DNA of 64,000 nucleotides, from positions 1 through 64,000 of the forward strand of contig JAILRA010000018.1 of NCBI GenBank assembly GCA_024698715.1, written 5' to 3'. A program made the translations under genes and the position numbers. This DNA comes from Lachnospiraceae bacterium. GTDB taxonomy: Bacteria; Bacillota; Clostridia; Lachnospirales; Lachnospiraceae. Below are positions 14,822 to 34,491 of the stretch, piece by piece. Position 1 is the stretch's first letter. Every line of letters starts with the position of its first letter. The notes beneath the pieces were generated by a model. That model saw nothing but the letters and a program-made list of their open reading frames with translations. It was not told the origin of the DNA and made no database searches.

Positions 14822-16495
14822 GTGGCAGTGAACAGCATTAACTCAGAACTTCTTGCAAAGATGTTCATGGCGGGTGCCTGCAGTCTTGAAAAGAAAAAAG
14901 AATATATAAATGAATTAAATGTATTTCCCGTTCCTGACGGAGACACCGGAACAAATATGACGATGACGATCATGTCGGCATATAAAGAACTCAACAATCT
15001 TGAAAATCCTGATATGAGAGCGGTTTGCAAAGCTATTTCATCCGGATCTTTAAGGGGTGCCAGAGGAAACAGCGGTGTTATATTATCACAGCTTATCAGA
15101 GGTTTTACCAAAGTGGCCTGTGAGTATAAGGAACTGGACATAGATGTTTTGACCGAAGGATTTAAAAATGCGGTCAATACTGCATATAAAGCAGTAATGA
15201 AACCTAAAGAAGGCACAATTCTTACGGTTGCTTCCGGTATTTACGATAAAGCAGCCGAATTAAGAAAAAACGGCGAAACGGATCTTGCGGTTTTTCTTCA
15301 GAAAACTGTGGATTACGCAGATGAAGTTTTGCTAAAAACTCCTGAGATGCTTCCTGTATTAAAACAGGCAGGTGTCGTGGATTCGGGTGGACAGGGACTT
15401 ATGGAAGCTATACATGGCGCGTTGGATTTATTCCTGGGTAAGGATGTTGAACTGACAATATCAACCAAGCCTCAGAATAAGAGTGAAAAAGGATTTAATA
15501 ACGAAAGTATTGTTGCAAAAGAAATAAAATACGGTTATGCAACCGAATTTAATATTATACTCAAACAACCTTTTAACGTTAAGGCTGAACTCGATTTCCA
15601 GAATTTCCTCGGTGCGATCGGTGACAGTGTTGTATTCATGCCTTCGGAAAAAAGTGCAAAAGTATACATTCACACAAACGATCCCGGTCTGGTAATTCAA
15701 AGAGGAATTAAATTCGGCATGCTCTCTGATATCAAGGTTGATAATATCAAACTTGAAAATCCCTCTAAAAAGACCGAAGAACCTTCTTCGAATACTGTTT
15801 CAAAACCTGTAAAGGAAGAAAAGGCAGCCGAAGCCAAAGAATACGGATTTATAGCTGTTTCAGTTGGCGACGGTATGAGTGAGATCTTCAAGTCAATCGG
15901 TGCCGATTATATCATTGAAGGCGGACAGACCATGAATCCTTCCACCGAAGATATGCTTAATGCTATTGAAAAAGTAAATGCAAAGCATATTTTCATCCTT
16001 CCGAACAACAAAAATATCGTTATGGCGGCAAATCAGGCGAGGGATCTGACAGAGAATAAAGAAGTTATTGTTATCCCTACCAAAACCGTTCCCCAGGGAA
16101 TAGGTGCTATGATAAGCTTTATGCCTGAATCAGATGTCAAGGATAATACCGACAACATGATCGAGGGTGCCAATAATGTTAAAACAGGCCAGGTAACATA
16201 TGCCGTAAGAGATACAGAGATTGATGATAAAGTCATTCAGAAAGACGATTATATGGGAATCGGAGATAAGGGAATCTTATCCGTAGGTCCCGACAGAGAT
16301 ACTGTTACCAGAAAAATGATCGATGAAATGGTAGATGATGATGCAAGTGTTATTACTATTTATGTTGGTCAGGATGTAGAGGAAGAATCTTGTAACAGAT
16401 TAAAGGAAGAACTCGAAGAAGCTTACGAAGATCTTGAAGTTGAGATTCAGATCGGAGGTCAGCCGATTTATTATTACATAGTTTCAGTTGAATGA
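14822..16495 (+). CDS. fakA: DAK2-domain fatty acid kinase FakA (YloV)
   Basis: FakA phosphorylates fatty acids presented by FakB (DegV) proteins for lipid synthesis. In 557 residues I see the DAK2 nucleotide/Mg site PVPDGDTGTNMTMT (37-48), the SLRGARGNSGVILSQLIRG loop, GVVDSGGQGL near residue 187, and the C-terminal DegV-like domain with ILPNNKNI and PTKTVPQGIGA. A serine/lysine/glutamate-rich linker lies near residues 315-335. The start is GTG, with GGAGG 7 nt upstream. No fakB gene is in the window. Confidence 0.93.
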   Translation: MAVNSINSELLAKMFMAGACSLEKKKEYINELNVFPVPDGDTGTNMTMTIMSAYKELNNLENPDMRAVCKAISSGSLRGARGNSGVILSQLIRGFTKVACEYKELDIDVLTEGFKNAVNTAYKAVMKPKEGTILTVASGIYDKAAELRKNGETDLAVFLQKTVDYADEVLLKTPEMLPVLKQAGVVDSGGQGLMEAIHGALDLFLGKDVELTISTKPQNKSEKGFNNESIVAKEIKYGYATEFNIILKQPFNVKAELDFQNFLGAIGDSVVFMPSEKSAKVYIHTNDPGLVIQRGIKFGMLSDIKVDNIKLENPSKKTEEPSSNTVSKPVKEEKAAEAKEYGFIAVSVGDGMSEIFKSIGADYIIEGGQTMNPSTEDMLNAIEKVNAKHIFILPNNKNIVMAANQARDLTENKEVIVIPTKTVPQGIGAMISFMPESDVKDNTDNMIEGANNVKTGQVTYAVRDTEIDDKVIQKDDYMGIGDKGILSVGPDRDTVTRKMIDEMVDDDASVITIYVGQDVEEESCNRLKEELEEAYEDLEVEIQIGGQPIYYYIVSVE

Positions 16496-16499
16496 TTTC

Positions 16500-18479
16500 A
16501 TGAATTATAATGAATTAAAAAACATATCAATAAAACAACTAAAAGGGGTGGGCGAAAAAAACGCCGCCCTTTTTGCGCGCTTGGGAATAGAATCCGTTTA
16601 TGATCTTATAAGTTACTATCCGCGAGCTTATAAAAAACTTCCGGCTCTTTGCAAGGTCTGCGAACTAAAAGAAGGGGAAGTCTGCGCTGTAAAACTTAAA
16701 GTATCGGATGATTTGTATTTTAAGAAGACTGCCAGCAATGCAGTTACAAGCGTAACCGGATTTGATTCGACCGGAAAGGTTTTAATGACCTTTTTCAGGG
16801 TTACATATTTAAGAAGCATGCTTAAGACTGGCTCTGAATGGGTGTTTATGGGTGTTGTCAAAAGAAAAGGTCGCAATTTCGCTTTTGAAATGCCCGAGAT
16901 TCATAAAACTTATGAATATATTGAGAATCTAAAGAATTTACAGCCTGTATACCATTTAACCAAAGGAATAAATTCAAAATCTATTGCGAAATATGTTACC
17001 GGCTCTATAAATGAACTCGGTCCCTTTGAGGATAAACTTGATCCCGAGATAATTAAAAAATTCGGCTTTCCTTCGCTTTCAAGGGCATTGTCGGATATAC
17101 ATTTTCCGATTAATGAAGAAGACTATATTTTTGCAAGAAACAGACTTGCCTTTGAGGAATTTTATGATTTCTTTATTCAGTTGAATGAAATCAAGAAAAA
17201 TTACAACAGACTTAAATCCGAATATGTTTTTTTGGAAACTGCCGAATATGAGAGATTTAAAAGCATAATACCGTTTGAACTTACTGCAGGCCAGAACAAT
17301 GCATTAAACGACATTGTTTCAGACCTTACAGGCGGTTTTGTAATGAACAGGCTTATTCAGGGCGATGTAGGATGCGGTAAAACTATTGTTGCTTTTCTTG
17401 CGGCTCTTTTATGTGCTTCCAACGGATATCAGTGTGCATTTATGGCACCTACGGAGGTCCTGGCAGCCCAGCATTTTACCAAATTTAAAGATCTGATTGA
17501 AAGGTATAAACTGAATCTTAATATTTCGTATCTTTCCGGTTCTACGACACAGACAGCAAGAAAAGAAATTCTTAATGATTTGTCTCTGGGAAGTATTAAT
17601 CTCATTGTCGGTACACATGCTTTAATAGAAGATAATGTTGAATTTGAAAATCTCGCTCTTGTCATAACTGATGAGCAGCACAGATTTGGTGTTCTTCAGA
17701 GAAATATTCTGTCGGACAAAGGCAATAAACCTCATATTTTAAGCCTTTCCGCAACACCCATTCCCAGAACTCTTGCAAGCGTATATTATACCGATTTGCA
17801 GGTTTCGCTGATTAAAGACAAACCTTCATGCAGAATTCCGATTAAAACAGGTTTAAGAAGTTCTCAAAACCGTGTTGAAGGATTGAGGTTTTTATATTCA
17901 AAAGTCAAGCTCGGACAGCAGGCCATAGTTGTCTGTCCAATGATAGAAGAAAACGAAGATACCAATCTTTCAAATGTCACCGATTATGCCAAATATTTAA
18001 AAGAACTTATGCCTGATGATATAAAAATCGGTGTTTTGCACGGCAGGATGAAGAATAACGAGAAGAACCGTATTATGCAGTATTTTGCCAATAATGATAT
18101 TAATATACTTGTATCAACTACTGTTATTGAGGTCGGTATCGATGTTCCAAATGCCACAGTTATACTCATAGAAAATGCCGAGAGATTCGGACTCGCAACA
18201 TTACATCAGTTAAGAGGGCGTGTCGGAAGAGGCAGTCTTGAATCGTATTGTATTTTAATTAACGGCTCGGGCAAGGAAGAAGAAAACGACAGACTTAATG
18301 TTATGCTTGAATCGGAAGACGGATTCTATATAGCTGACGAAGATTTGAGATTAAGAGGACCCGGCGATTTGACAGGTATCCGACAAAGCGGAGACATGCA
18401 TTTCAAAATTGCCGATATGTACAGAGACAGAGAGCTCTTTGTAAAAGCGAAAGAATATGCAGATAAAAAGTATTTGTAA
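16500..18479 (+). CDS. recG: ATP-dependent DNA helicase RecG
   Basis: RecG remodels stalled forks and branched DNA. The 659-residue protein has the N-terminal wedge domain (SIKQLKGVGEKNAALFARLGI), Walker A QGDVGCGKT, the DEQH box in VITDEQHRFGVLQR, SATPIPRT, and the C-terminal VIEVGIDVPNAT / RLRGRVGRG-type motif (HQLRGRVGRG). I chose the ATG at 16500, 4 nt after the fakA stop; a TTG at 16488 overlapping fakA is also in frame. Neither has a ribosome site, so translation is likely coupled. Confidence 0.95.
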   Translation: MNYNELKNISIKQLKGVGEKNAALFARLGIESVYDLISYYPRAYKKLPALCKVCELKEGEVCAVKLKVSDDLYFKKTASNAVTSVTGFDSTGKVLMTFFRVTYLRSMLKTGSEWVFMGVVKRKGRNFAFEMPEIHKTYEYIENLKNLQPVYHLTKGINSKSIAKYVTGSINELGPFEDKLDPEIIKKFGFPSLSRALSDIHFPINEEDYIFARNRLAFEEFYDFFIQLNEIKKNYNRLKSEYVFLETAEYERFKSIIPFELTAGQNNALNDIVSDLTGGFVMNRLIQGDVGCGKTIVAFLAALLCASNGYQCAFMAPTEVLAAQHFTKFKDLIERYKLNLNISYLSGSTTQTARKEILNDLSLGSINLIVGTHALIEDNVEFENLALVITDEQHRFGVLQRNILSDKGNKPHILSLSATPIPRTLASVYYTDLQVSLIKDKPSCRIPIKTGLRSSQNRVEGLRFLYSKVKLGQQAIVVCPMIEENEDTNLSNVTDYAKYLKELMPDDIKIGVLHGRMKNNEKNRIMQYFANNDINILVSTTVIEVGIDVPNATVILIENAERFGLATLHQLRGRVGRGSLESYCILINGSGKEEENDRLNVMLESEDGFYIADEDLRLRGPGDLTGIRQSGDMHFKIADMYRDRELFVKAKEYADKKYL

Positions 18480-18492
18480 TATATGTTTTACT

Positions 18493-18527
18493 CCCTTAAG
18501 TGCATTATTGTACTTAAGGGAATTTTT
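18493..18527 (+). terminator. intrinsic terminator after recG
   Basis: CCCTTAAGT (18493-18501) pairs with ACTTAAGGG (18512-18520), followed by AATTTTT. It separates the recG operon from the SLH array. Confidence 0.8.
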
Positions 18528-18612: not shown

Positions 18613-19977
18613 ATGAAAAATAAAGGTTTAAGGATTAGAAAGAGCGCTTTAAGCTTTATCCTTTCTTTTTTTATGATTTTGAGTCTGATTCAATTCAGCA
18701 CTTTGAAAGTAAAAGCTGACGGAAATGTTGTTGATATTTTCAATGACGTTATCGAAGGACAATGGTATGTAAATGCTGTTCAGTTTGTTTATGACCGCGG
18801 AATAATGGTTGGTACTAGTGCGAATACTTTCGGTGTTAGTCAGAAACTTCAGCGCGAACAGTTCGCACAGATTCTTTACAGTATGGCCGGAAAACCGGCT
18901 GTTGCTGCAGATGCAGAAAATCCTTTTAAAGATGTAAAGAATAATCCCGGATATCCGAGAGATGCCATTCTTTGGGCTTATTCAGAAGGAATAGTTGCAG
19001 GAAATGCAAACGGTACCTTTGGTGTCGGTCAGGCAATTCAAAGACAGGCTGTTGCTGTAATGCTTTATAAATATGCTCAGAAATTCCATTATAATCTGAC
19101 GACAAACGATAATGCACTTGACGGGTTTGATGATAAGTCGAATGTAGCAAACTGGGCTCTTCCTTCTATGAAATGGGCAGTAACTCAGGGTATTATTTCG
19201 GGAAAAGGAAACGGTAAAGTTGATCCTGCAGGAAATGCTACAAGAGCAGAGTGTGCGGCAATGATTAAAATGCTGATTCAAAAAAATAATCCTCAGGTCG
19301 GCGATATAATCACATTCGGTAAATATGAACAGGATGACAACGAAGCGAATGGCAAGGAAGATATAGATTGGATTGTTTTAAGTGTGGAAAACGATCGTAT
19401 GCTTCTTATAAGTCAATATGCTCTTGATAATGTCCCGTATCATACTTCATATTCCGATATCACATGGGAAAACAGTTATATAAGAAATTGGCTGAATGAC
19501 GATTTTATAAATACTGCATTCAGTGAAGAAGAACGTTCCATAATACCTACCGTAAAACTTAAAAATGAAAATAATCCCCGCTATGATACACCCGGCGGAA
19601 ACGATACTGAAGATAAAATATTTTGTCTGAGTGTGAAAGATACTGAAACTTATTTCGGGGATTATAATTCATATGATGAAAAATACTTTGACGGTTATAA
19701 TCAGAGATTGATATGTGATTGCACACAATATGCCGTAAACAGAGGAGCTTTCCGCTATATTATAACAGAAGAAGATTACGAAAATACACTGAGTAAAAAG
19801 GGCTATTCTGCAGATGTTGTTAATATGCGTACCTGCAGCTGGTGGCTCAGAACACCGGGAGGCGGTAATAAATATGCATGCATAATCGGCCATATGGGAG
19901 AATTCGGTGCGTATCAGGATCGTGAAGTAGAATTGGACACTCTTACGGTTCGTCCTGCAATTTATGTGGAATATTAG
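18613..19977 (+). CDS. secreted SLH protein with DUF6273-like C-terminal domain (copy A)
   Basis: 454 residues. A signal peptide (1-36, ending around KVKADG) is followed by three SLH repeats (about 38-97, 100-163 and 168-226, the last with the canonical TRAE). SLH domains bind secondary cell-wall polymer, so the protein should be held on the surface. Residues 232-454 form a domain I assign to DUF6273: VGDIITFGKYEQD, W-x-V, TWENSYIRNWLNDDFINTAF, CSWWLRTPG and the terminal TVRPAIYVEY. Its function is unknown. CGGAGG lies 8 nt before the ATG. It is the first of four related genes. Confidence 0.85.
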   Translation: MKNKGLRIRKSALSFILSFFMILSLIQFSTLKVKADGNVVDIFNDVIEGQWYVNAVQFVYDRGIMVGTSANTFGVSQKLQREQFAQILYSMAGKPAVAADAENPFKDVKNNPGYPRDAILWAYSEGIVAGNANGTFGVGQAIQRQAVAVMLYKYAQKFHYNLTTNDNALDGFDDKSNVANWALPSMKWAVTQGIISGKGNGKVDPAGNATRAECAAMIKMLIQKNNPQVGDIITFGKYEQDDNEANGKEDIDWIVLSVENDRMLLISQYALDNVPYHTSYSDITWENSYIRNWLNDDFINTAFSEEERSIIPTVKLKNENNPRYDTPGGNDTEDKIFCLSVKDTETYFGDYNSYDEKYFDGYNQRLICDCTQYAVNRGAFRYIITEEDYENTLSKKGYSADVVNMRTCSWWLRTPGGGNKYACIIGHMGEFGAYQDREVELDTLTVRPAIYVEY

Positions 19978-20016
19978 TTTGATATTATTAAATGATATTT
20001 TTAATGCAATTAATAA

Positions 20017-20148
20017 GATTATTTGATTATCAGATATCTTAATGCATGCGTTGTTTCAGATTTGGGAATATCCGGTGCAAATAACTGTGATGCAAGTATT
20101 GCCCGTGAAATTATAGGTATCAGACCTGCTGTATATATTAAGCACTGA
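20017..20148 (+). pseudogene. 3' remnant of another DUF6273 gene
   Basis: Between copies A and B, an open stretch with no start codon reads RYLNACVVSDLG.. and ends ..EIIGIRPAVYIKH before a TGA at 20146. This lines up with the last 35-40 residues of the neighbouring DUF6273 domains (NKYACIIGHMGEFG.. to TVRPAIYVEY). The rest of that gene is missing. It marks a deleted or replaced paralogue at the point where gene B now begins, 19 nt downstream. Confidence 0.75.
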
Positions 20149-20167
20149 GATAAAAAGAGGGGATACA

Positions 20168-22114
20168 ATGAAAAGGGAAATCAAAAGAATAATCTGTTTG
20201 TTTCTTTCTGTCTTACTGACTGTCGGCATCGTGAATATCAGATCAATAAGCGTAAAAGCGGACGGCAGTGTGGTCGATATTTTCAGCGATGTTAAAGCGG
20301 GACAATGGTATGTGAACGCTGTACAGTATGTCTATGATCGCGGAATAATGATAGGAACGAATGCAAACACATTCGGAGTCAGTCAAAATCTTCAACGTGA
20401 GCAGTTCGCTCAAATTCTATACAGCATGGCAGGAAAACCAACTGTTCCCGCAGATGCTCAAAATCCCTTTAAAGATGTAAAAAATTATTCCGGTTATCCG
20501 AGAGATGCCATCCTCTGGGCTTATTCAATGGGAATAGTTGCCGGTAACGGTGACGGCACATTCGGAGTCGGTGAAGCAATTCAAAGGCAGGCTGTAGCCA
20601 GCATGCTTTATAAATATGCGCAGTCTTTCGGTTATGATCTGACTTCAAATCAGAATGCAATTAATGAATTCAATGATAAATCCAATATTGCCGAATGGGC
20701 AAAACCTGCAATGAACTGGGCTGTAACCCAGGGTATTATTTCAGGAAAAGGAAACGGCAAGGCAGATTCGACAGGAAATACAACCAGAGCTGAATGTGCA
20801 TGCATGATAAAAAAATTACTGATTCTTTCCCAGACAACCGGAAAAATCAGAATAAATTTACTGGTTGCAGCTATTGACCCCATGCTTTATTCGGTTGACG
20901 GAAATCCTTTCGGAAACGGATGCGATAGTATTAAGGCTTCTGAATATCTTAGATTTTCGCTTGATGATTCATTGATGTTCTGGTGCAATAATTTTATGGA
21001 GATTTCGCATAATACGGTAGATATAAACATTGTAGATACCGTTATTATCGATGAATTTCCCAAATACAAATCCATAGATTCGCTTGATAATGAATCTTTT
21101 CAGAGATTATTTAAAAAAGATGCCGATGGTTTCGGAGACTGGTATTCCGGTATCACAGATCCTGAATATGCCCAATATGACACCTGCGGCGATCTGGATT
21201 ATCAATATTATATAGATAAACTTGATCTGGTAAAAAGAAAGAATGCCAATGAGTTTAATATGGTCTTTTTAATCGGGATTGACCCTTTGTCTCCGTTTGA
21301 AACAAGTATGGTTGGCAGGCATCCATTCTACGTCAACGGCGGCATTTTTGAAGCAGACTGCGATAATTTTGTTATAATAACACCCACATTTTCAAGACAG
21401 GACGGATCATTGGAAGATATCGGTCATATGGCTGAAAATATGCTTGGATATTCATATAGTGAAGTTTATTATTCGGAAGGATTAATAGACGGAAGCGATT
21501 ATTCCGCGTTAAATGACTGGGAAAAATATTGCCTTTGTAAATATATTGCGACACCAAATACGGAAGTTTACGGATACGGAATGGTTCATTTTTCTCCGAA
21601 TTCCGAAAGAGATTACGATTGGGCAAATGATAATATAGTAAAATATTACAAAGACTGGAGAAACGGATCGGATATTCAGGAATTTTCGGCATCTGAATGC
21701 TATCTTAATGATCCTCTGTATTCTTATAATCACGATCCTTGTATTTCTCATCACAGATGGTGGTTCTACAATATGCCATACGAAAAGGGAAGAGATAAAG
21801 AAGGGTATTATAACAGCTGGTGGAGATATATTTTTACTCCGGACTATGTAACTCATGTTTTACCCGAGAATTCATATTCTGATTCCAAAATAACCATTAA
21901 GGTCGGGGACAAAAAAACTGTTCCTTTTATACTTGAATACTTTACAGGACAGAAAGTTCATACCGATTCCTGCGAAAGCCTTGCTTTTGTATCTGTAAGT
22001 AACAGTAATCTTTCTGTTGAGGATGGCAGAATCTGCGGCAAAAAAGCAGGCAAGAGCAAAGTTACAGTAAAAATTGACGGTAAAAGTCTCGTATATAATG
22101 TAATAATTGAATAA
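20168..22114 (+). CDS. secreted SLH protein with a different C-terminal domain (copy B)
   Basis: 648 residues: signal peptide (to about residue 35), three SLH repeats closely similar to copy A (37-225), then about 340 residues unrelated to DUF6273. This middle part contains EDIGHMAENMLGYSYSEVY (H419 region), HFSPNSERDYDWANDN, and HHRWWFYNMPYEKG with NSWWRYIF (about 525-550). These resemble, from memory, an uncharacterised secreted family of actinobacteria and fungi; I cannot name an activity. The last 80 residues look like an Ig-like (Big2-type) domain (ITIKVGDKKT..KAGKSKVTVKIDGK). AGAGGGG precedes the ATG. It is the only copy of the four without a DUF6273 tail. Confidence 0.8.
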   Translation: MKREIKRIICLFLSVLLTVGIVNIRSISVKADGSVVDIFSDVKAGQWYVNAVQYVYDRGIMIGTNANTFGVSQNLQREQFAQILYSMAGKPTVPADAQNPFKDVKNYSGYPRDAILWAYSMGIVAGNGDGTFGVGEAIQRQAVASMLYKYAQSFGYDLTSNQNAINEFNDKSNIAEWAKPAMNWAVTQGIISGKGNGKADSTGNTTRAECACMIKKLLILSQTTGKIRINLLVAAIDPMLYSVDGNPFGNGCDSIKASEYLRFSLDDSLMFWCNNFMEISHNTVDINIVDTVIIDEFPKYKSIDSLDNESFQRLFKKDADGFGDWYSGITDPEYAQYDTCGDLDYQYYIDKLDLVKRKNANEFNMVFLIGIDPLSPFETSMVGRHPFYVNGGIFEADCDNFVIITPTFSRQDGSLEDIGHMAENMLGYSYSEVYYSEGLIDGSDYSALNDWEKYCLCKYIATPNTEVYGYGMVHFSPNSERDYDWANDNIVKYYKDWRNGSDIQEFSASECYLNDPLYSYNHDPCISHHRWWFYNMPYEKGRDKEGYYNSWWRYIFTPDYVTHVLPENSYSDSKITIKVGDKKTVPFILEYFTGQKVHTDSCESLAFVSVSNSNLSVEDGRICGKKAGKSKVTVKIDGKSLVYNVIIE

Positions 22115-22129
22115 TAAAAAGGGGGTCTT

Positions 22130-23512
22130 ATGAAAAAAAGAATTAAGAGATTAATCTGTTTGTTTCTTTCTCTTTTTATGGTTGTCGGTATAATTAACTT
22201 CCGTTCTTTGACTGCCAGTGCCGATGGTAATGTTGTTAATATTTTCGATGATGTGGAAGCCGGCAAATGGTATGTGAATGCCATTCAGTTTGTGTATGAC
22301 CGCGGAATTATGGTCGGAACAAGTGCTAATACTTTTGGCGTTCATCAAAAACTGCAGCGCGAACAGTTTGCTCAGATACTTTACAGTATGGCGGGCAAAC
22401 CTTTTCTGAAACGCGGCATCAAAAACCCGTTTTCGGATGTTCCCGATGAACCGGGATATCCCAGGAATGCGATACTTTGGGCCTATTCCGAAGGAATAGT
22501 TGCAGGTAACGCTGACGGCACATACGGTGTAGGTCAGGCCATTCAAAGACAGGCTGTAGCCGGCATGCTTTATAAATATGCCCAGAAATATAACTATGAT
22601 TTGACTGTAAATCCTGAAGCTTTAACCGGATTTAATGATTCAAAAAAAGTATCGAATTGGGCCGGTAATTCAATGAAATGGGCCATAACTCAGGGAATAA
22701 TTACCGGTAAAGATGACAGGACTCTCGATCCTTTGGGCAATGCTACAAGAGCAGAATGCGCTGCAATGATTATGCGTCTTATTAACAAAAATTCAGGCGA
22801 AAAACCTAAAGTAGGAGATATTATTAAATTCGGCAAATCCGAACAGGACGCAAATGCATCCAACGGAAAAGAACCGATTGAATGGCAGGTGCTTAAAGTA
22901 GAATCAAACCGCGTACTTGTAATAAGCAAGGATGTTTTGGATAACAGAAGATATAATGAACTTAATGGTGTAATGCTTACATGGGAAACATGTGATTTAA
23001 GATACTGGCTTAATAATGATTTTAAAAATGAAGCATTTAACGGTTCCGAACTGGCAAGAATTCCTACGGTAACAGTTAAAAATGAAGACAATGAATCTGC
23101 CGGAATAGAAGGCGGAAATGATACTCAGGATAAGCTTTTCTGTCTTAGCATAAGTGAGATAGATGAATTGTTTGAAATGAATTATAAGCCCGGAGGTTAT
23201 CATCCTAATTATCTTCTTTACAGTCAGTATTTAATAGCGGCTCCTTCTCAGTACACTATTTCTCAGGATGCATATGTTTTTCATATAACCGAAGAATATT
23301 ATAATGATTATTTGTCAGGGTGGAATTATAACCGTGACGTTATCGGAAAGACAGGAACTAATTGGTGGCTTCGAACACCCGCACAAATAAATGGCCAAGC
23401 TAATGAGTTCTGCAATTGCTTTGTGGAATATCAGGGATTTTCCGGCGAGGGCATGAGGCAACAGGTTAGACAGCCTTACGGAGTACGTCCCGCTTTGTAT
23501 TACTATTATTAA
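22130..23512 (+). CDS. secreted SLH protein with DUF6273-like domain (copy C)
   Basis: 460 residues with the same plan as copy A: signal peptide ending near ASADG, three SLH repeats (about 37-224) nearly identical in layout to A and B, then a DUF6273-like domain (about 232-460) with VGDIIKFGKSEQD, TWETCDLRYWLNNDFKNEAF, NWWLRTP and the terminal GVRPALYYYY. The stretch between WWLRTP and RPALY differs strongly from copies A and D. Ribosome site GGGGG lies 6 nt before the ATG, 15 nt after copy B, so the array may be co-transcribed. Confidence 0.85.
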   Translation: MKKRIKRLICLFLSLFMVVGIINFRSLTASADGNVVNIFDDVEAGKWYVNAIQFVYDRGIMVGTSANTFGVHQKLQREQFAQILYSMAGKPFLKRGIKNPFSDVPDEPGYPRNAILWAYSEGIVAGNADGTYGVGQAIQRQAVAGMLYKYAQKYNYDLTVNPEALTGFNDSKKVSNWAGNSMKWAITQGIITGKDDRTLDPLGNATRAECAAMIMRLINKNSGEKPKVGDIIKFGKSEQDANASNGKEPIEWQVLKVESNRVLVISKDVLDNRRYNELNGVMLTWETCDLRYWLNNDFKNEAFNGSELARIPTVTVKNEDNESAGIEGGNDTQDKLFCLSISEIDELFEMNYKPGGYHPNYLLYSQYLIAAPSQYTISQDAYVFHITEEYYNDYLSGWNYNRDVIGKTGTNWWLRTPAQINGQANEFCNCFVEYQGFSGEGMRQQVRQPYGVRPALYYYY

Positions 23513-23541
23513 TGTAATTTATCATAAAGGAGATTATTTTT

Positions 23542-24903
23542 ATGAAAAAATTTGCCAGGAGTGCTTTTTGCTCACTTCTTTCGCTTATATTGATTGTAAG
23601 TGTTTTACAAATAAGCACTCTTACAGTTAAAGCTGAAGGAGAAGTGGAAAACATTTTTAGTGACATCAAAGGAAACGAATGGTTTGTTCCTTATGTTCAA
23701 TTTGTTTATGATACCGGTATAATGAGCGGAAAGGGCAATGTTTTTGATCCCGCCGGAAATATGCAAAGAGAGGAAATCGCACAGATTATATATAATCTTG
23801 CCGGAAAACCTCAGCTTCATGCCAATCCGGTAAATCCATTTACTGATGTAAAAAGCAGTGACTGGTTTTACAAAAGCATCATCTGGTGCTCGGCCAACGG
23901 AATAGTCGGTGGTATCGGAAACGGAAAATTTGGAACCGGTCAGAAAATAACCAGAGAAGATTTTGCTTTAATGTTTTTTAAGTTTGCACAGGCCAGAAAT
24001 CTCGATTCAGTTAATAATATTGACAATACTGCAATCGAAGGCTATGCGGATACCGCTAAAATCAGTCCTTATGCAAAAACAGCCATGAACTGGGCGATAA
24101 GTAACGGCCTTATAAGCGGAAAAGGAGCTGCGGGTGCACCCAAATCCGAAATAAAACTTGACCCTAAAGGCTATACCACAAGAGCTGAGGGCGCCACAAT
24201 AATCAAACATTTTTTTGCTATCAATATTCAAAAATGGGATACGATAAGATTTGGACGATACGAACAGGACAATAATATCGATAACGGCAAAGAGGCTATT
24301 GAATGGGAAGTTCTTCGCGTTGATGGCAATAAAGCATTATTAGTCAGCAAATATGTCCTTGAACGCAAACGAATCAACGAAACGTATTCTGATGTTACTT
24401 GGGAAACATGTTCATTAAGAAAATGGCTTAATGAAGATTTTATAAATACCGCGTTTACCGGTGCGGAACAAAAAAGAATTCCGACTGTTACATTGGTTAA
24501 TGATAATAATCCCAAAAAAGGAACTTCAGGCGGCAATAAGACTAAAGATAAATTATTCTTATTAAGTATTGATGATATTATGGAATGTTACGGATATCAA
24601 AGTTTTGATCTTGATAATATATACGGATTTAATCAGAGATTAATCTGTGCTCCCACGCCATATGCCAAAAATGCCGGCATAGAAGAATATGTCATTACGG
24701 AAGAGGATTATAATGATTACAAACAATACGGTTATACAGAAGATATAATCGGAATGATCGGCTGCAGCTGGTGGACTCGTACTCCGGGCGAAAATTCCAG
24801 GTCGAATTTGTTTATAAATCCCCTCGGATATACAGGAGAATGGTATTCCGTTCACGATGCAGGTCCCGGAATTCGTCCTGTATTGTATTTTGAATTTAAA
24901 TAA
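23542..24903 (+). CDS. secreted SLH protein with DUF6273-like domain (copy D)
   Basis: 453 residues. The signal peptide (to about residue 32) is followed by three SLH repeats that are clearly more diverged than in copies A-C (NIFSDIKGNEWFVPYVQFVYDTGIMSGKG; third repeat with TTRAE) and then a DUF6273-like domain (231-453): WDTIRFGRYEQD, TWETCSLRKWLNEDFINTAF, CSWWTRTPG and the ending GIRPVLYFEF. AAGGAG precedes the ATG. It is the last gene of the array; a strong hairpin terminator follows at 24982. Confidence 0.85.
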   Translation: MKKFARSAFCSLLSLILIVSVLQISTLTVKAEGEVENIFSDIKGNEWFVPYVQFVYDTGIMSGKGNVFDPAGNMQREEIAQIIYNLAGKPQLHANPVNPFTDVKSSDWFYKSIIWCSANGIVGGIGNGKFGTGQKITREDFALMFFKFAQARNLDSVNNIDNTAIEGYADTAKISPYAKTAMNWAISNGLISGKGAAGAPKSEIKLDPKGYTTRAEGATIIKHFFAINIQKWDTIRFGRYEQDNNIDNGKEAIEWEVLRVDGNKALLVSKYVLERKRINETYSDVTWETCSLRKWLNEDFINTAFTGAEQKRIPTVTLVNDNNPKKGTSGGNKTKDKLFLLSIDDIMECYGYQSFDLDNIYGFNQRLICAPTPYAKNAGIEEYVITEEDYNDYKQYGYTEDIIGMIGCSWWTRTPGENSRSNLFINPLGYTGEWYSVHDAGPGIRPVLYFEFK

Positions 24904-24981: not shown

Positions 24982-25036
24982 AAAATACATTATGTGGTCT
25001 TAATTTTTCGTTATGCACCATATAATGTATTTTTTT
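24982..25036 (+). terminator. terminator at end of SLH array
   Basis: AAAATACATTATGTGGT (24982-24998) pairs with ACCATATAATGTATTTT (25017-25033), 17 bp with one G-U pair, followed by T residues. It closes the array before the topoisomerase IV promoter. Confidence 0.85.
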
Positions 25037-25066: not shown

Positions 25067-25145
25067 TTTATGGATGTGCGAACATATGTCCGATTTATTT
25101 TGTTCGTTTTATTCAAATATTTTTAAAGAAAGTCAGAGATTTATT

Positions 25146-27065
25146 ATGGCTCAAAAACAGGTTTATGATTCAAGTTCTATTATGGTCCTCGAAGGCCTTG
25201 AGCCTGTAAGGGAAAGACCGGGAATGTATATAGGTTCAACATCCACAAAGGGTTTGAATCATCTTGTGTACGAAATAATGGATAACTCGGTCGATGAACA
25301 TATGGCCGGATTTTGTGATACAATCAGCGTTTCTTTAAATGCTGACGGTTCCGCTACGATAAGTGATAACGGAAGAGGTATTCCCGTAGACAGACATGAA
25401 AAAGGAATTACTGCCGAAAGAATTGTTTTGACGACTCTTCATGCAGGAGGAAAATTCAGTAATGATGTGTATAAAAATGCAGGTGGTCTTCATGGTGTCG
25501 GAAGTTCTGTTGTAAATGCTTTATCAAAACGTTTTGACATTACTGTAAAACGTGACGGATTTGTTTACAAAGATGCATACGAATACGGAAAACCCGTAGT
25601 AGAACTAGAGGATGGTCTGCTTCCCGTATCCGGAAAGACAAGAGAAACCGGTACCAGCATTACATTTACTCCGGATGATACCATTTTCGAAAAGACTTAT
25701 TTCAGATCTGAAGATATTAAATCCAGAATCCATGAAACTGCTTATCTCAACCCGGGACTGACTATTATTTTCGAAGATAAAAGAGAAAACAAAGAAAAGA
25801 TCGTTTTCCATGAAGAAGAAGGAATCACAGGTTTTGTTAAAGATCTTAACAAAGGTAAGGAAGTGCTTCATGATGTAATCTGTCTTCACGGTCAGAGCGA
25901 ACATGTAATCGTTGACTGCGCTTTTCAGTATGTCGACGAATTTCATGAAAACGTACTCGGCTTTTGCAATAATATTTACAATGCCGAAGGCGGTACACAT
26001 ATAACCGGATTTAAAACCATGTTTACACAGGTGATCAACAATTACGCAAGATCGCTTGGTATATTAAAAGATAAAGACCCTAATTTTACCGGTGCTGAAG
26101 TGAGAAACGGCCTGGTTTGTGTTCTTTCGATCAAACATCCCGAACCCCGTTTCGAAGGTCAGACCAAAACCAAACTGGATAATCAGGATGCTTCAAAAGC
26201 CGTATCAAAAGTTATTAATGACGAATCACAGCTTTTCTTTGACAGAAATCTTGAGATTTTGAAAACGATCATCGGATGTGCAGAAAAGGCTGCAAAGATC
26301 AGAAAAGCCGAAGAAAAAGCCAAGACAAACATGCTCGGCAAACAGAAGTTTTCATTTGACTCGAACGGAAAACTTGCCAACTGTGAATCAAAAGATGCCG
26401 AAAAATGTGAGATATTCATTGTCGAAGGTGATTCCGCGGGCGGTTCCGCCAAAACCGCAAGGAACAGAAAATATCAGGCAATCCTTCCAATCAGAGGTAA
26501 GATCCTTAATGTCGAAAAAGCCAGCATAGACAAGATTCTCGCCAATGCGGAGATCAAAACCATGATCAATGCTTTCGGTTGCGGCTTTTCGGAAGGATAC
26601 GGCAACGATTTTGATATAAGCAAACTTCGTTATGACAAAATAATAATCATGGCGGATGCCGATGTCGACGGTGCTCATATCAGTACATTGCTTCTGACAT
26701 TGTTCTATCGTTTTATGCCGGAACTTATTTTTGAAGGCCATGTTTATATTGCAATGCCTCCTCTTTATAAAGCAATTCCGGCTCGTGGTGAAGAAGAATA
26801 TCTGTATGATGATGCGGCACTTAACGCGTACAGAAAGAAACATAAAGGACCATTTACACTTCAGAGATATAAAGGTCTCGGTGAAATGGATGCCGAACAG
26901 CTTTGGGAAACCACACTCGATCCGGAGAGAAGAAATCTAAAACAGATTCAGATAGAAGATGCTTCCATGGCTTCAAAGCTTACGGAACTTTTGATGGGTA
27001 ATGATGTTGCACCCAGAAAAGAATATATTTACAAACATGCCAATGAGGCTGAACTTGATATATAA
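25146..27065 (+). CDS. parE: DNA topoisomerase IV subunit B
   Basis: ATPase subunit of a type IIA topoisomerase. In 639 residues I see the GHKL ATP site (EIMDNSVDE 43-51, DNGRGIPV 74-81, GGLHGVGSSVVNALS), the TOPRIM motif EGDSAGGSA, PIRGKILNVEKA, MADADVDGAHI and the terminal QRYKGLGEMD. A frame-open ATG at 25074 would sit at the predicted transcription start, so I prefer the ATG at 25146. I call it topoisomerase IV rather than gyrase because its partner lacks the GyrA box and no dnaA/recF neighbours are present. Confidence 0.87.
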   Translation: MAQKQVYDSSSIMVLEGLEPVRERPGMYIGSTSTKGLNHLVYEIMDNSVDEHMAGFCDTISVSLNADGSATISDNGRGIPVDRHEKGITAERIVLTTLHAGGKFSNDVYKNAGGLHGVGSSVVNALSKRFDITVKRDGFVYKDAYEYGKPVVELEDGLLPVSGKTRETGTSITFTPDDTIFEKTYFRSEDIKSRIHETAYLNPGLTIIFEDKRENKEKIVFHEEEGITGFVKDLNKGKEVLHDVICLHGQSEHVIVDCAFQYVDEFHENVLGFCNNIYNAEGGTHITGFKTMFTQVINNYARSLGILKDKDPNFTGAEVRNGLVCVLSIKHPEPRFEGQTKTKLDNQDASKAVSKVINDESQLFFDRNLEILKTIIGCAEKAAKIRKAEEKAKTNMLGKQKFSFDSNGKLANCESKDAEKCEIFIVEGDSAGGSAKTARNRKYQAILPIRGKILNVEKASIDKILANAEIKTMINAFGCGFSEGYGNDFDISKLRYDKIIIMADADVDGAHISTLLLTLFYRFMPELIFEGHVYIAMPPLYKAIPARGEEEYLYDDAALNAYRKKHKGPFTLQRYKGLGEMDAEQLWETTLDPERRNLKQIQIEDASMASKLTELLMGNDVAPRKEYIYKHANEAELDI

Positions 27066-27095
27066 AAGATATTATCGTTTTAGGAGCTGTATATA

Positions 27096-29333
27096 ATGGC
27101 TGAAAAGATCATAAAAAGCGAATATTCCGAGGTGATGAGCAAATCGTTCGTGGATTATGCCATGAGCGTTATCATCGCACGTGCACTTCCGGATGTCAGG
27201 GACGGATTAAAACCCGTTCAAAGACGTGTGCTTTATGATATGCACGAACTCGGAATCAAACATGACAAACCTTACAGAAAATCCGCAAGGATCGTCGGTG
27301 ATACGATGGGTAAATATCATCCTCACGGTGATTCTTCAATATATGATTCACTGGTTGTCCTGACACAGGATTTCAAAAAAGGACTGGCTCTTGTTGACGG
27401 ACATGGTAACTTCGGTAATATTGAAGGCGACGCGGCCGCTGCAATGCGTTATACCGAAGCAAGACTTCAAAAGATTACCGAAGAAGCTTTTCTTGCCGAT
27501 CTGGATAAAGATGTTGTTGATTTTGTTCCGAATTTTGACGAAACCGAAAAAGAACCGAGCGTTCTTCCGGTTAAGATTCCTAATATCCTTGTTAACGGTT
27601 CGGAAGGAATCGCAGTAGGTATGGTAACAAGCATTCCTCCTCATAATCTCGGTGAAGTGATCGACGCAACTTTAATGTTTTTAAAAGATCCGGATATGAC
27701 AACCGCGGACCTTATGAAATACATCAAAGGACCGGATTTTCCTACCGGCGGTATAGTTATCAATGAAGATGAACTTCTTCAGATTTACGAAACAGGTGTC
27801 GGCAAGATCAAAGTCAGAGGAAAAGTGGAAGTGGAAAAAGGCAAGAACGGTAAAACCAATCTTGTGATCACTGAGATCCCTTATCCGATGATAGGTGCCA
27901 ATATTTCAAAGTTTCTTTCTGATATTGCCGCACTTTACGAATCCAAAAAAGCGCCTGATATTGTAGATATTTCCAATCAGTCTTCCAAGGAAGGCATCCG
28001 TATCGTTATCGAGCTCAAAAAAGATGCCGATGTAGAAAACTACAAGAACATGCTATATAAGAAGACCAGACTGGAAGATACATTCGGTGTAAACATGCTT
28101 GCCATTTCTCACGGCAAACCCGAAACATTGTCTCTTCGTGATATAATTGCCAATTGCGTTGAATTCTCATACGAGTTCAATCAGAGAAAATATACCAATC
28201 TTTTGGCCAAAGAAGAGGAAAAACGTGAGATCCAGGAAGGCCTTATCAAAGCCTGCAATGTTATCGACCTTATAATTGAGATCCTTCGAGGTTCAAAAGA
28301 CCGTGCGATGGCTAAAAAATGTCTCGTTGAAGGGATAACTGACGGTATACATTTTAAATCCAAAGAATCCAAGATCATGGCAATGCAGCTCATGTTCACC
28401 GAAAAACAGGCAAATGCCATTTTGGAAATGCGTCTCTATAAACTCATAGGACTTGAGATCGAAGCACTTATCAAAGAACATGACGAAACCATGTCCAATA
28501 TTTTCAAATATGAGGATATTCTTGAAAGAAAAAGTTCGATGACTCAGGTCATTTCGGAAGAATTAAAGGCTATCAAAAAACAATATGCCAGAGAAAGACG
28601 TACTGTTATTTCCAATCAGAGTGAAGCTGTCTATGAAGAGAAGAAGATGGAAGAGATGGATGTGTACGTTCTTATGGACAGATTCGGTTATGTAAAGGCA
28701 GTCGATCTGGCTACATATGACAGAAACCTCGAATCCATCAAAGAAGAATGCAAATTTGCCGTTCTTTGCAAAAACACCGGAAAAGTCTGTCTGTTTGACG
28801 ACAACGGAATGTTATATACAGCCAAAGTGGCCGATATTCCTCTCGGAAAGATCAGGGATAAAGGTATACCCATTGACAATATTACGGCATATACTTCAAA
28901 CGATTCTTCGATCATGCTTTTATGCTCGCAGTCGGATCTGAATCTTTACAGAATGATATTCATATCCAAGATGAGTTTCATGAAAGTTGTGGACGGCGGA
29001 GAATTCGACGTAACGAGAAAGACCATTCAGGCAACCAAACTTACCGACAAGGACAGACTTGCGTGCGTTTGCATACTCAATGAACAAAAGAATGTAGTTC
29101 TTGTATCCGATGACGGTTATTTCTTAAGATTCCCGATCGAACAGATACCGGAAAAGAAGAAGGGTGCTGTCGGAGTAAGGGGTATGAAACTGAGTAACGG
29201 AGCGCTTATAGACAAAGTGTTCTTTACCGGTAATGCTACGGATAATGTTATCATATATAATGATACCGAAATTCCTTCCTCTAAGATAAAACTTTCCAAC
29301 AGGGACGGAAAAGGAACTAAACTGAGATTGTAA
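27096..29333 (+). CDS. parC: DNA topoisomerase IV subunit A
   Basis: DNA-breaking subunit, 745 residues. The catalytic tyrosine is Y119 ([11 protein letters not shown]); the quinolone-determining stretch [12 protein letters not shown] (75-86) keeps the sensitive-type Ser80/Ser81 and Asp84. The C-terminal beta-pinwheel has degenerate repeats and no QRRGGKG box, and the protein is shorter than a typical GyrA (about 820 or more), which favours ParC. It follows parE after 30 nt, with AGGAG before the ATG. Confidence 0.87.
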
Positions 29334-29345
29334 AAGAGGTGCCTT

Positions 29346-29900
29346 TTGAGAGTAATCGCAGGAACTGCAAGAAGCATCAATTTAATAACGCCGAGGGGAC
29401 TTGATACACGTCCTACAACGGATAAATACAAAGAAACACTTTTTAACTGTCTTCAGTCATACGTTGGCGGATGTGTTTTCGTTGATCTGTTTTCGGGCTC
29501 CGGCGCAATAGGTATTGAGGCTTTGAGCAGAGGTGCAGCCAGGGCGTATTTCGTAGATAATTCACGCGAAGCATATGACTGCATCAAAGCTAACTTAAAT
29601 AAAACAAAGCTGATCGATAAAGCAAGCATATTCAAAGAAGATGTTTCGTTTTTTATAAGAAGCCATCTTAAGGAAATTCCGGATATTGTATTCATAGACC
29701 CTCCGTTTGCAAAGCATTTGGAAAAAGAAGTTATTCCCATGCTTGACGAAAATCATCTTATAGGCGATGATACAATTATCGTTGTAGAATGTGACTGTGA
29801 AGCTGATTTCGGATTTCTGGCAGATCATGGTCTTGAAATATTCAAAACCAAAGAATATAAGAACAATAAACATGTTTTCATATCGAAAATAACCGATTGA
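29346..29900 (+). CDS. rsmD: 16S rRNA (guanine(966)-N(2))-methyltransferase RsmD
   Basis: 184-residue SAM methyltransferase of the RsmD family: MRVIAGTARSINLITPRG..TRPTTDKYKETLFN at the start, SAM site VDLFSGSGAIGIEALSRGA, and the base-binding motif DPPFAKHLEK. It starts at TTG, with AGAGGTG just upstream. coaD follows after 21 nt, the usual Firmicutes rsmD-coaD pair. Confidence 0.93.
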   Translation: MRVIAGTARSINLITPRGLDTRPTTDKYKETLFNCLQSYVGGCVFVDLFSGSGAIGIEALSRGAARAYFVDNSREAYDCIKANLNKTKLIDKASIFKEDVSFFIRSHLKEIPDIVFIDPPFAKHLEKEVIPMLDENHLIGDDTIIVVECDCEADFGFLADHGLEIFKTKEYKNNKHVFISKITD

Positions 29901-29921
29901 TCATTTGAAAGGAAGTATCCC

Positions 29922-30407
29922 ATGGGCAGTGCCATTATTTATCCTGGAAGTTTCGATCCCGTTACCTACGGCCATATCGATATTATTAGAAGGGCATCTA
30001 AAAACTATGATACAGTGTATGTTTCGGTTTTGGACAATAATAAAAAAAGTCCCTTGTTTACAGTTGAAGAACGTGTTAAAATGTTAAATGATGTGACTAA
30101 AGATTTTGACAATGTAATTGTTGAAACTTTCAGGGGACTTCTTATTGATTATGCTAAGGAAAAAGATGTTCGCATGGTACTTAGAGGCTTGAGAGCATTG
30201 ACGGATTTTGAGTATGAGCTTCATATGGCTCAGACCAATTATCTCATATCCGGCGGAACGCTTGAGACCGTTTTCCTACCTACCGATTTGGAATATTCAT
30301 ATCTTTCTTCCACTACAGTCAGAGAGATTGCAAGTTTTCACGGTGATGTTACCAAATTTGTTCCTGAAAGCATTGCCGAAAGTTTGTATAAAAAATTCGG
30401 ATATTAG
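29922..30407 (+). CDS. coaD: phosphopantetheine adenylyltransferase
   Basis: CoaD makes dephospho-CoA from 4'-phosphopantetheine and ATP. The 161-residue protein has the nucleotidyl-transferase motif GSFDPVTYGHIDIIRRA at the start, LRGLRALTDFEYELHMAQTN in the middle and the YLSSTTVREIASF motif near residue 130. Length is normal. AAAGGAAG lies 6 nt before the ATG. Confidence 0.95.
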   Translation: MGSAIIYPGSFDPVTYGHIDIIRRASKNYDTVYVSVLDNNKKSPLFTVEERVKMLNDVTKDFDNVIVETFRGLLIDYAKEKDVRMVLRGLRALTDFEYELHMAQTNYLISGGTLETVFLPTDLEYSYLSSTTVREIASFHGDVTKFVPESIAESLYKKFGY

Positions 30408-30424
30408 ATTGGAGAAATAATTCA

Positions 30425-31156
30425 ATGGCAGCTGAAAAAGATAATGTTGATGTTCAGAAGTTAGAGCGTAAGATTTCGGAAATCGAAAAAATTCTTGATG
30501 AAAGCAAGCCTTCAAAACTCAAAAAGGGAATGATTCTTGTTGATTTGGAACTTATTTTGGAAAAGCTTGAAGAATTAAAATCAATGGTTCCCGAACAGAT
30601 AAAACTCGCAAACAATGTTCTTTCCAAGAGAGAGAAACTTTTAAAAAGTGCAGAAGCTCTTGCTCATGACAAGATTGATAAGGCGAATGCCAAAGCTTTT
30701 GAAATAGAAAAAGAAGCTATGGATAAAGCGGCTGAAACCGAAGAAATGCTTCAGAACAAATTATCAGAGAATGAGATCATGCTCGAAGCTCAGAAACAGG
30801 CAGATGCTCTTGTTGAAGAAGCGCAGATCCTTTCACAGAAAAGTGTCGATGAAGCTGAGGCTTACAAAGAAGATATAATTAAGAGCATGAACTTCTATAT
30901 GGACGATATTCTCGTTGATATGTTAAAAGCAGTTGAAGAAGTAATGCTTAAGAACAGCAAGACTTTCGAAGATGCTCAGGCAAGACTTGATACTCTTTAC
31001 AGCAAGATTGAAGACAACAGAGCTGAGATCGCTCCTATGCTTGAAGAAGATGAGCCTGCTGAACCTAAAGCAAAGGCAGAGCCCAAACAACAACAGTATA
31101 TCCCCGAAGAAGAGGATTATAATGACGGTTTATCCGAGGATGACGAAGATTTCTAA
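30425..31156 (+). CDS. coiled-coil protein of unknown function
   Basis: 243 residues, almost entirely helical and charged (about 5-200), with a stretch typical of membrane-ATPase stalk or DivIVA-like coils (EKEAMDKAAETEEMLQNKLSEN), and a disordered acidic, proline-containing tail (210-243, EEDEPAEPKAKAEPKQQQ). No domain is identifiable. Genes of this kind sit behind coaD in related clostridia, by my recollection. AGAAATAATTC precedes the ATG; a terminator follows. Confidence 0.7.
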   Translation: MAAEKDNVDVQKLERKISEIEKILDESKPSKLKKGMILVDLELILEKLEELKSMVPEQIKLANNVLSKREKLLKSAEALAHDKIDKANAKAFEIEKEAMDKAAETEEMLQNKLSENEIMLEAQKQADALVEEAQILSQKSVDEAEAYKEDIIKSMNFYMDDILVDMLKAVEEVMLKNSKTFEDAQARLDTLYSKIEDNRAEIAPMLEEDEPAEPKAKAEPKQQQYIPEEEDYNDGLSEDDEDF

Positions 31157-31163
31157 AATAAAG

Positions 31164-31191
31164 ATGACCTCTTGATGAGAGGTCATTTTTT
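31164..31191 (+). terminator. intrinsic terminator
   Basis: ATGACCTCT (31164-31172) pairs with AGAGGTCAT (31178-31186), loop TGATG, followed by TTTTT. Confidence 0.85.
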
Positions 31192-31214
31192 ACGTTTTGA
31201 TTAAGGTTAAATAT

Positions 31215-31790
31215 ATGTTTTCAAAATTTAAAGGACAATTCGGATATTTGAGAAAACAGCCGGTAAGAGTGGGTATTTTTACCGTCGTTCTTCTTTTTAT
31301 GTGCGCAGCTGTATTTCTGACGGGCTATATACTTAAAGGTGATGTTAAGAACATTTTTACCGTAGTGGCTGTTTTGGGCACCTTGCCCGCCGCTAAGATG
31401 ATAGTTTCATTCATCATGTATCTTAAAGCTGAAAAATTCACCTGTAAGAAAGATACTTATGAACGCGTGGAAAAAGTTTTGTCCGGTAAGGATGTCGAAT
31501 ACGGATATGATTTTTATCTTACCAGTTATAAGACCAATTTCGCCGTTTCTTCCTGCGCCGTTTTTGACGGTTCTATGATCCTATTATATCCGGACGGCAA
31601 AGAAAAAAACAAAGAATTACGTGAGCATGTCGAAAAATATCTTAATAATAATTCGATAACTCAGGTTAATGTTTATGTGCTTGAAAGTGAAGATAAATAT
31701 ATCGAAAGACTTAAAAGCGCAGATTCATCATATCACAAAACCGAAACCGACACTGCAGCGATAACTCTGATCAAGAACCTTTCTCTTTAG
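31215..31790 (+). CDS. membrane protein of unknown function
   Basis: 191 residues with two N-terminal membrane helices (about 20-41 and 47-70) and a soluble C-terminal domain of mixed strands and helices (70-191). I do not recognise the family. I take the ATG at 31215, which has AAGG 8 nt upstream; a TTG at 31197 lies too close to the preceding terminator. Confidence 0.65.
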   Translation: MFSKFKGQFGYLRKQPVRVGIFTVVLLFMCAAVFLTGYILKGDVKNIFTVVAVLGTLPAAKMIVSFIMYLKAEKFTCKKDTYERVEKVLSGKDVEYGYDFYLTSYKTNFAVSSCAVFDGSMILLYPDGKEKNKELREHVEKYLNNNSITQVNVYVLESEDKYIERLKSADSSYHKTETDTAAITLIKNLSL

Positions 31791-31807
31791 TTTTTCTTAT
31801 TTATCTT

Positions 31808-32764: not shown

Positions 32765-32782
32765 TCTGATTAAAGATATACT

Positions 32783-32821
32783 TTGATACAATAATTTGAT
32801 AATTTGCTAATTAGTTATCAA
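32783..32821 (+). promoter_or_regulatory. his promoter with overlapping palindrome
   Basis: TTGATA (32783-32788) and GCTAAT (32806-32811) are 17 nt apart. An interrupted inverted repeat, TTGATAA (32796-32802) and TTATCAA (32815-32821), flanks the -10 region and contains CTAATTAG in its centre. Inference: an operator for hisZGD. Confidence 0.5.
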
Positions 32822-32854
32822 TTTAAAGCGCTAAAGTAAACTTGAGAGGTTAAT

Positions 32855-33820: not shown

Positions 33821-34461
33821 TGGATGACAGATATTTGGCGATTGCATTATGCAAAGGCAGAGTTGCCAACCAGACAATGGACCTGCTCGAAAGCCTCGGT
33901 ATTAAATGCGATGAAATCAAAGATAAAAACACAAGAAAACTGATATTCACCAACGAAGAGTACAAACTCAAATTCTTTCTTGCCAAAGGACCCGATATCC
34001 CCACTTATGTTGAATACGGTGCAGCGGATCTCGGAGTTGTCGGAAGTGATATAATCGATGAAGAGCAAAGGAGAGTAATAGAGCTTTTGGATCTCGGCTT
34101 CGGAAAATGCAGAATGTGCGTTTGCGGACCAAAAGATGCCAAAGAGCTCCTTTTACACCGCGAACAGATAAGAGTTGCGACCAAGTACCCTGTGATTGCC
34201 AAGGATTATTTTCATAACAAAAAATATCAGACTGTTGATATAATCAAACTTAACGGTTCGGTGGAACTCGGACCCATCGTGGAACTTTCGGATGTTATCG
34301 TCGATATAGTCGAAACAGGTTCAACATTAAGAGAAAACGGTCTTGAAGTTCTTGAGGAAATATGTCCGATCTCGTCGAGACTTATAGCTAACAGGGTCAG
34401 TCTTAAGATGCAAAAAGAAAGAATAGAAAAACTTACCGAAGAGATCAAAAAGCATCTTTAA
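33820..34461 (+). CDS. hisG: ATP phosphoribosyltransferase, short form
   Basis: First committed enzyme of histidine synthesis, 213 residues, lacking the C-terminal regulatory domain and so needing HisZ. Visible: LAIALCKGRVANQTMDLLESLGI, DIPTYVEYGAADLGVVGSDII, and the PRPP site DVIVDIVETGSTLRENGL. The start ATG shares its first base with the hisZ stop codon, and GGAG lies 8 nt upstream. Confidence 0.95.
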   Translation: MDDRYLAIALCKGRVANQTMDLLESLGIKCDEIKDKNTRKLIFTNEEYKLKFFLAKGPDIPTYVEYGAADLGVVGSDIIDEEQRRVIELLDLGFGKCRMCVCGPKDAKELLLHREQIRVATKYPVIAKDYFHNKKYQTVDIIKLNGSVELGPIVELSDVIVDIVETGSTLRENGLEVLEEICPISSRLIANRVSLKMQKERIEKLTEEIKKHL

Positions 34462-34491
34462 ACGTTTATCAGTCTGTTAAGGAGAAAGCAA

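Follow-up and report, generated by a model that had tools for sequence, protein, structure and literature searches.

In the genome that encodes the S-layer homology (SLH) proteins Sap and EA1, 19 further chromosomal genes carry SLH domains, BslO is a glucosaminidase, and the plasmid-encoded BslA is an adhesin (PMC7759979, in the portion of the article available). DUF6273 has been described in other settings. In the available sections of two reports, the DUF6273 domain of gut-phage proteins resembles C-type lectins (PMC10743442), and is hypermutated by diversity-generating retroelements (DGRs), with the variable region in gut phages mapping to the C-terminal end of the domain (PMC11792537). The statement in the preliminary description of our locus that the function of DUF6273 is unknown is therefore partly outdated, as a C-type-lectin fold and DGR hypermutation have been published. 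In the IgA peptidase of Thomasclavelia ramosa, a construct that lacked DUF6273 retained its cleavage of IgA Fab (PMC12402451, in the part of the text accessible), suggesting that the domain is dispensable there for substrate recognition.

Here, we describe an array of four SLH-anchored proteins in a window of 64,000 nucleotides from a Lachnospiraceae genome. Genes A (18613-19977, 454 aa), B (20168-22114, 648 aa), C (22130-23512, 460 aa) and D (23542-24903, 453 aa) are adjacent open reading frames (ORFs) on the forward strand. Each begins with a signal-peptide-like sequence, judged by eye from its basic start, hydrophobic stretch and AxA-like end, and each contains three SLH stretches according to Pfam (E 1.6e-27 to 2.8e-30). 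In A, C and D the anchor is followed by a tail with DUF6273 (PF19789; E 3e-24 to 4.9e-29), at 19390-19971 in gene A, with scores of 101.8, 86.2 and 93.2 bits, respectively, against a cut-off of 23.5. In gene B, an anchor at approximately 20264-20812 is followed from position 20843 by a module with an Ig-like end that matches neither DUF6273 nor any other Pfam family above cut-off. ORFs and Pfam thus agree with the preliminary description, which had proposed four adjacent genes with a signal peptide and three SLH repeats, three of them with DUF6273 and one with a different module. It had also described A to C as close in their SLH part and D as more diverged, and this holds: identity to the anchor of A is 79-80% for B, 74% for C and 42% for D, whose anchor lies at approximately 23632-24213. 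Other family collections added little: NCBIfam gave each gene one match far under its cut-off, and among PHROG families a Hoc-like head decoration family matched A (E 8.4e-6) and C (E 0.0035), and phrog_9958 matched A, C and D.

The array lies between recG (16488-18479, forward strand, Pfam) and a gene for a GyrB/ParE-type topoisomerase subunit (25074-27065, forward strand, Pfam), which we assign as parE rather than gyrB; a second parE-type paralogue, 53% identical, is present on contig 11 of the same genome. A terminator-like hairpin with a 13-pair stem and a T tail (18492-18521, forward strand) follows recG, as listed by a consensus terminator scan that overall found 6 sites compared to 4.7 expected, and a long hairpin followed by a T run (24982-25034, forward strand; fold -19.6 kcal/mol), a probable terminator, follows gene D. 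The downstream hairpin has a z-score of -7.4, with none of 200 shuffles equally stable, and is missing from the list of the consensus scan. Given these two borders, A to D are probably an operon-like cluster that forms its own unit between recG and parE. Spacing is 15 nt between B and C, 29 nt between C and D, and 190 nt between A and B. This last interval holds a probable remnant of a DUF6273 gene (20032-20148, forward strand), outside every listed ORF, whose translation corresponds to the last 38 codons and the stop and which ends 19 nt ahead of the start codon of B. Its score against a profile of the DUF6273 tail alignment is modest (14.7; E 0.0018 among the 1812 frames of the window, the next match having E 0.015), and by itself it has no Pfam match. 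We consider it a likely trace of a lost fifth DUF6273 gene.

DUF6273 was found in all 31 genomes of the genus, with 1 to 6 matches in each of the 30 others compared to 18 in the genome studied here, which also has 67 SLH matches. Eight of its genes have the layout of SLH followed by DUF6273, namely A, C, D and five dispersed copies on contigs 102 (two), 106, 42 and 100. Three genes elsewhere in this genome have the reverse layout, with DUF6273 first and a C-terminal SLH anchor. Among genus relatives, proteins of two (L057, L058) carry DUF4214 ahead of DUF6273 and no SLH, and in a third (L055) an SLH-DUF6273 ORF is truncated where its contig ends; a search of genome contigs with gene A found one relative, which matches in the SLH part only. 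Several other DUF6273 genes were observed. Contig 95 of the same genome encodes a protein kinase with a C-terminal DUF6273 domain (L047:3860-5743). Many genus genomes have DUF6273 frames of about this length (626-640 aa), and the kinase gene may thus represent the DUF6273 gene that the genus conserves. On contig 3, a 2471-residue ORF with three weak DUF6273 matches (L048:5430-12845) lies near an SLH protein whose anchor is the closest to that of D. In L058, a 107-residue ORF (L058:3990-4313) behind a full-length DUF6273 gene matches only the C-terminal part of the DUF6273 tail and resembles the remnant before gene B.

The order dak-recG-parE is conserved in the genus, and the gap between recG and parE was compared. 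Twenty of the 25 relatives with a parE match above 800 bits were retrieved, and recG and parE were on one stretch in 18. The array was absent from all 18 readable gaps, searched with SLH, DUF6273 and B-tail queries at E 1e-5. Eleven gaps were shorter than 300 bp and seven contained other genes: by sequence, a sigma-factor gene with a neighbour in four, a radical-SAM gene with others in two, and only unknown genes in one. For one sigma factor (L063) and one radical-SAM protein (L071), Pfam bore out the assignment. In one further genome (L075), in which the contig ends before recG, a DUF6273 gene is directly upstream of parE. The recG-parE gap is a site where genes come and go across genus relatives. 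The preliminary description had named invariance of the locus across strains, together with identical anchor and tail trees, as an argument against module exchange; among genus relatives, each species being represented by one genome, the site varies.

The idea of a constant anchor with diverging outer parts is upheld by the seven A-type DUF6273 copies (A, C and the five dispersed copies), in which anchors are 66-86% identical and tails 42-68%; the tails of A, C and D share 45-46%. However, recombination is not required to explain this contrast, because both anchors and tails have nearly saturated synonymous sites and neither set of trees rejects the groups of the other. At four-fold sites, identity is 0.29-0.56 in anchors and 0.23-0.56 in tails, compared to 0.33 expected for unlinked codons. 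A-type anchors are thus old and have been kept similar as proteins, not copied recently, and no recent exchange or homogenization is visible in either part. Recent gene conversion of the anchors left no sign: four-fold sites are near saturation, and exact matches are short, the longest reaching 11-20 nt between A, B, C and D and no more than 38 nt when all nine copies are compared.

The preliminary description had proposed separate trees of anchors and tails as a check on exchange. For the A-type copies, these gave no answer. Small anchor and tail trees had no starred branch, nor did a larger tail tree of 21 rows. When D was omitted, the seven A-type copies gave anchor and tail trees that differed in weak groups only, and none of five cross-tests rejected them: three anchor groups were compatible with the tails (p-AU 0.43, 0.29 and 0.29) and two tail groups with the anchors (p-AU 0.31 and 0.064). 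A single clade of A-type tails was unrejected with or without D (p-AU 0.223 and 0.283, respectively), as was a clade of A, C and D (0.101). These p-values assume groups named beforehand, which is the case for D, named in the preliminary description; the grouping of B discussed below and the groups in the A-type cross-tests were chosen after the trees had been seen. Tails of the A-type copies seem simply to evolve faster than their anchors, most of all in the C-terminal hairpin.

The anchor of D gave a clearer result. It is 42-45% identical to A-type anchors; its tail, at 44-50%, is as close to the others as most of them are. A tree was built of 30 SLH triplets, taken from this genome and from one relative and excluding partial matches of fewer than 150 residues. 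In it, one starred clade (98/93) united the anchors of A and B with those of the copies on contigs 102 and 106. The D anchor instead formed a clade (100/99) with three anchors of proteins without DUF6273, namely a transglutaminase/CBM_X2 protein, a beta-helix protein and a Flg_new-repeat protein, in all of which the SLH part lies towards the C-terminus. Placement of D among the A-type anchors was rejected (p-AU 0.000155). As judged from these sequences, the result supports an origin of the D anchor from another SLH lineage and module exchange for this gene. The tail trees are poorly resolved, and the tails thus leave room for an old divergence of D as a whole gene.

Gene B is a second case. 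With the whole tail as the query, the module was found only in its own genome among 392 genomes of the order. A 322-residue stretch found its own genome and one weak match (E 0.0084) among 398 genomes of the phylum; this candidate was dropped as a relative, the protein being a terminase large subunit. A 191-residue stretch matched 13 of 391 genomes of the class at E <= 0.05, comprising its own, two clear relatives (E 2e-40 and 1.4e-33) and ten at 0.0048-0.05. The clear relatives (L104 and L105), 42% and 36% identical over the 191 residues, represent two genera, both from a single further family. Of 391 class genomes, 11 matched a profile of the module, these same three over nearly the full length and eight in the Ig-like end or a partial stretch; of 275 genomes of the order, 3 matched, full-length in its own only. 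Searches of plasmids and of viral contigs found no matches, and among phage records six gave hits to the Ig-like end, at E 0.6-0.8. In both L104, which has a signal-peptide-like start, and L105, the module and Ig-like end precede the SLH anchor (two and three Pfam stretches, respectively), so that the anchor is at the end opposite to that in gene B. The anchor of B is approximately 80% identical to that of A and 31-34% identical to those of L104 and L105. A grouping of B with the L104 and L105 anchors was unrejected (p-AU 0.098), the anchors of these two relatives being long branches. The close similarity of the B anchor to that of A, together with the C-terminal anchors of the relatives, shows that the module is joined to an A-type anchor here, with the anchor on the other side, so that B is chimeric by its module, as D is by its anchor. 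The proposal that the locus evolves by recombination of modules therefore stands in part: it fits B, whose module has a C-terminal anchor elsewhere, and D, on the basis of its anchor clade and the AU test, but is not supported for A, C and the five other A-type copies, in which four-fold sites are near saturation and the trees do not reject one another.

An AlphaFold model of the A tail, made from 21 sequences, reached a pLDDT of 97.2. Its only significant match among solved structures was 9qa6 (E 2.7e-7, TMq 0.57), with no C-type lectin at E <= 0.001, and sequence searches of solved structures with the DUF6273 tail returned nothing significant. We infer that 9qa6 is the T. ramosa IgA peptidase, matched within its DUF6273 domain. 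As our fold search gave only this entry, assignment of the lectin fold rests on published DALI searches. Among viral models, twelve matched the A tail at E <= 0.001, and four of these bear the name DUF6273. The most variable part of the tail is a C-terminal hairpin (A-tail residues 193-219), with 2.73 bits of variation compared to 1.68 for the tail across the 21 sequences, flanked by near-invariant WW-R and RPA. In the 21 genus sequences, this hairpin is poor in K, E, Q, M and W (61 of 454 codons, compared to 426 of 1475 at the variable positions outside it). More of its codons also end in C or T, even when only amino acids with both kinds of ending are counted (143 of 220, compared to 314 of 610 elsewhere). 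Sliding windows that overlap the hairpin are the extremes of the tail for both counts, and individually, 16 of the 21 sequences have more C/T endings in the hairpin and 5 have fewer. Fisher p-values on these counts treat codons as independent, and the sequences are related.

The codon make-up of the hairpin is what an origin from an adenine template would predict, and one interpretation is that the tails are domesticated relatives of DGR-diversified phage lectins, with the bacterium having fixed a once-hypermutated DUF6273 repertoire on wall anchors. We regard this as improbable; the low content of K, E, Q, M and W could be explained by the composition of a binding site alone, and the third bases of the hairpin have lost any template-like freezing. 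Sequence searches with the A tail found nothing in viral contigs and two matches among 50,697 phage records, at E 9e-21 in a 5.8 kb record and at E 5e-10 in MT835514.1. The stretch of MT835514.1 in question (25524-37892; L120) is filed as bacteriophage, and its ORFs look like those of a bacterial chromosome. It encodes a DUF6273-like protein with a hydrophobic N-terminal stretch, and inspection of its ORFs by eye revealed no reverse transcriptase, nor did the repeat search applied to it reveal repeats.

We think it likely that the array encodes wall-anchored adhesins, each an SLH anchor with a ligand-binding outer part, whose family has grown by duplication, loss and occasional joining of anchors and modules. 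Proteins A to D would be secreted via their signal-peptide-like start, and the SLH triplet would hold them non-covalently on cell-wall polysaccharide, which for SLH-anchored proteins as a class would be a pyruvylated polymer made with CsaB. In A, C and D, the outer part would be a C-type-lectin-like domain whose hairpin side binds an extracellular ligand, a candidate being a glycan or protein of the host surface, the food matrix or another microbe. Ligand binding on the wall is, from sequence, the most likely function. Points against it are the IgA peptidase construct that works on IgA Fab after loss of DUF6273, and the fold search, in which 9qa6 but no C-type lectin scored significantly. Tails would diverge faster than anchors because the ligand of the anchor is constant and that of the outer part is not. 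The family would have grown through gene duplication, through gene loss as suggested by the remnant before B, and through occasional fusions that gave an outer part another kind of SLH anchor, as in B and D. A simpler account invokes tandem duplication and divergence alone, with anchors under purifying selection, tails drifting or selected to differ, and no exchange of domains. It accommodates A, C and the five dispersed copies, with their near-saturated four-fold sites in both halves, mutually compatible trees and short exact matches, but it is already contradicted for B, whose module is unrelated to DUF6273, and it does not predict that the D anchor groups with C-terminal anchors of proteins that lack DUF6273; as a full explanation it is unlikely.

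At the other extreme, the locus could be actively variable, serving phase or antigen variation through a dedicated mechanism (a recombinase, gene conversion or a DGR) that swaps or mutates the tails. DUF6273 is a retroelement target in gut phages (PMC11792537, in the part available) and in another phage adjoins a reverse transcriptase gene, the hairpin is the most variable part of the tail, and a truncated tail probably sits between A and B. However, the sole RVT_1 match in the assembly, which is 89% complete, is a fragment of a group II intron reverse transcriptase cut by the end of contig 47 (L039). The accessory protein bAvd matched in none of the 31 genus genomes, a search in which no positive control matched either. 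Copies share no exact match above 38 nt, and third bases at variable hairpin columns are not frozen by a template (0.315 identical compared to 0.29 expected, in the 21 DUF6273 sequences). There is thus no sign of a DGR in this genome, and we consider active variation very unlikely. A different question concerns B alone, which might be an enzyme, making the array one enzyme and three binding proteins. H195, E198, H249, D257 and D259 of its tail, invariant in the three full-length members, could hold a metal. Against this, only three sequences are available, the module has no significant Pfam, PHROG or solved-structure match, and a single-sequence model of it was useless (pLDDT 32.7), and we hold an enzymatic B to be possible but doubtful. 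For the array as a whole, the evidence supports exchange for B and D and divergence for the rest, with no sign of an active variation mechanism.

Compared to described systems, the array does not seem to be a new one; it resembles a surface-protein family of an ordinary kind, in which two domain swaps can be seen. Like the SLH family of Sap and EA1, it comprises many SLH-anchored paralogues in one genome that differ in their functional parts; in that family, the functional parts named in the available portion of the article are of other kinds, whereas three of the four genes here carry DUF6273 (PMC7759979). With tentaclins and other DGR-hypermutated phage DUF6273 proteins, as far as these are described in the accessible sections, it shares the domain and a variable C-terminal part (PMC11792537), which in the phage proteins belongs to a C-type-lectin-like fold (PMC10743442), but the array is cellular and SLH-anchored, no retroelement was found, and its divergence is old. 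The T. ramosa IgA peptidase, which the A tail resembles through the fold match to 9qa6, has an N-terminal domain named DUF6273 that precedes an M64 peptidase, with a possible sortase motif at the end (PMC12402451, in the part available); in the array, by contrast, DUF6273 follows the SLH anchor. The L104 and L105 proteins, from two genera of another family, combine a module and Ig-like end 33-34% identical to those of B over the aligned length, but their anchor is C-terminal, whereas that of B is N-terminal. The available text of PMC10743442 and PMC12402451 does not mention SLH, and no paper in the library searched, to which this statement is confined with no wider absence claimed, combined S-layer homology, C-type lectin and diversity-generating. 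DUF6273, which the papers retrieved describe as a target of phage hypermutation or in single proteins, is here an expanded SLH-anchored repertoire of a bacterial surface. Genes B and D provide two concrete examples of domain swaps in which module and anchor are found in reverse order elsewhere, and the array makes DUF6273 binding testable with stable natural variants.
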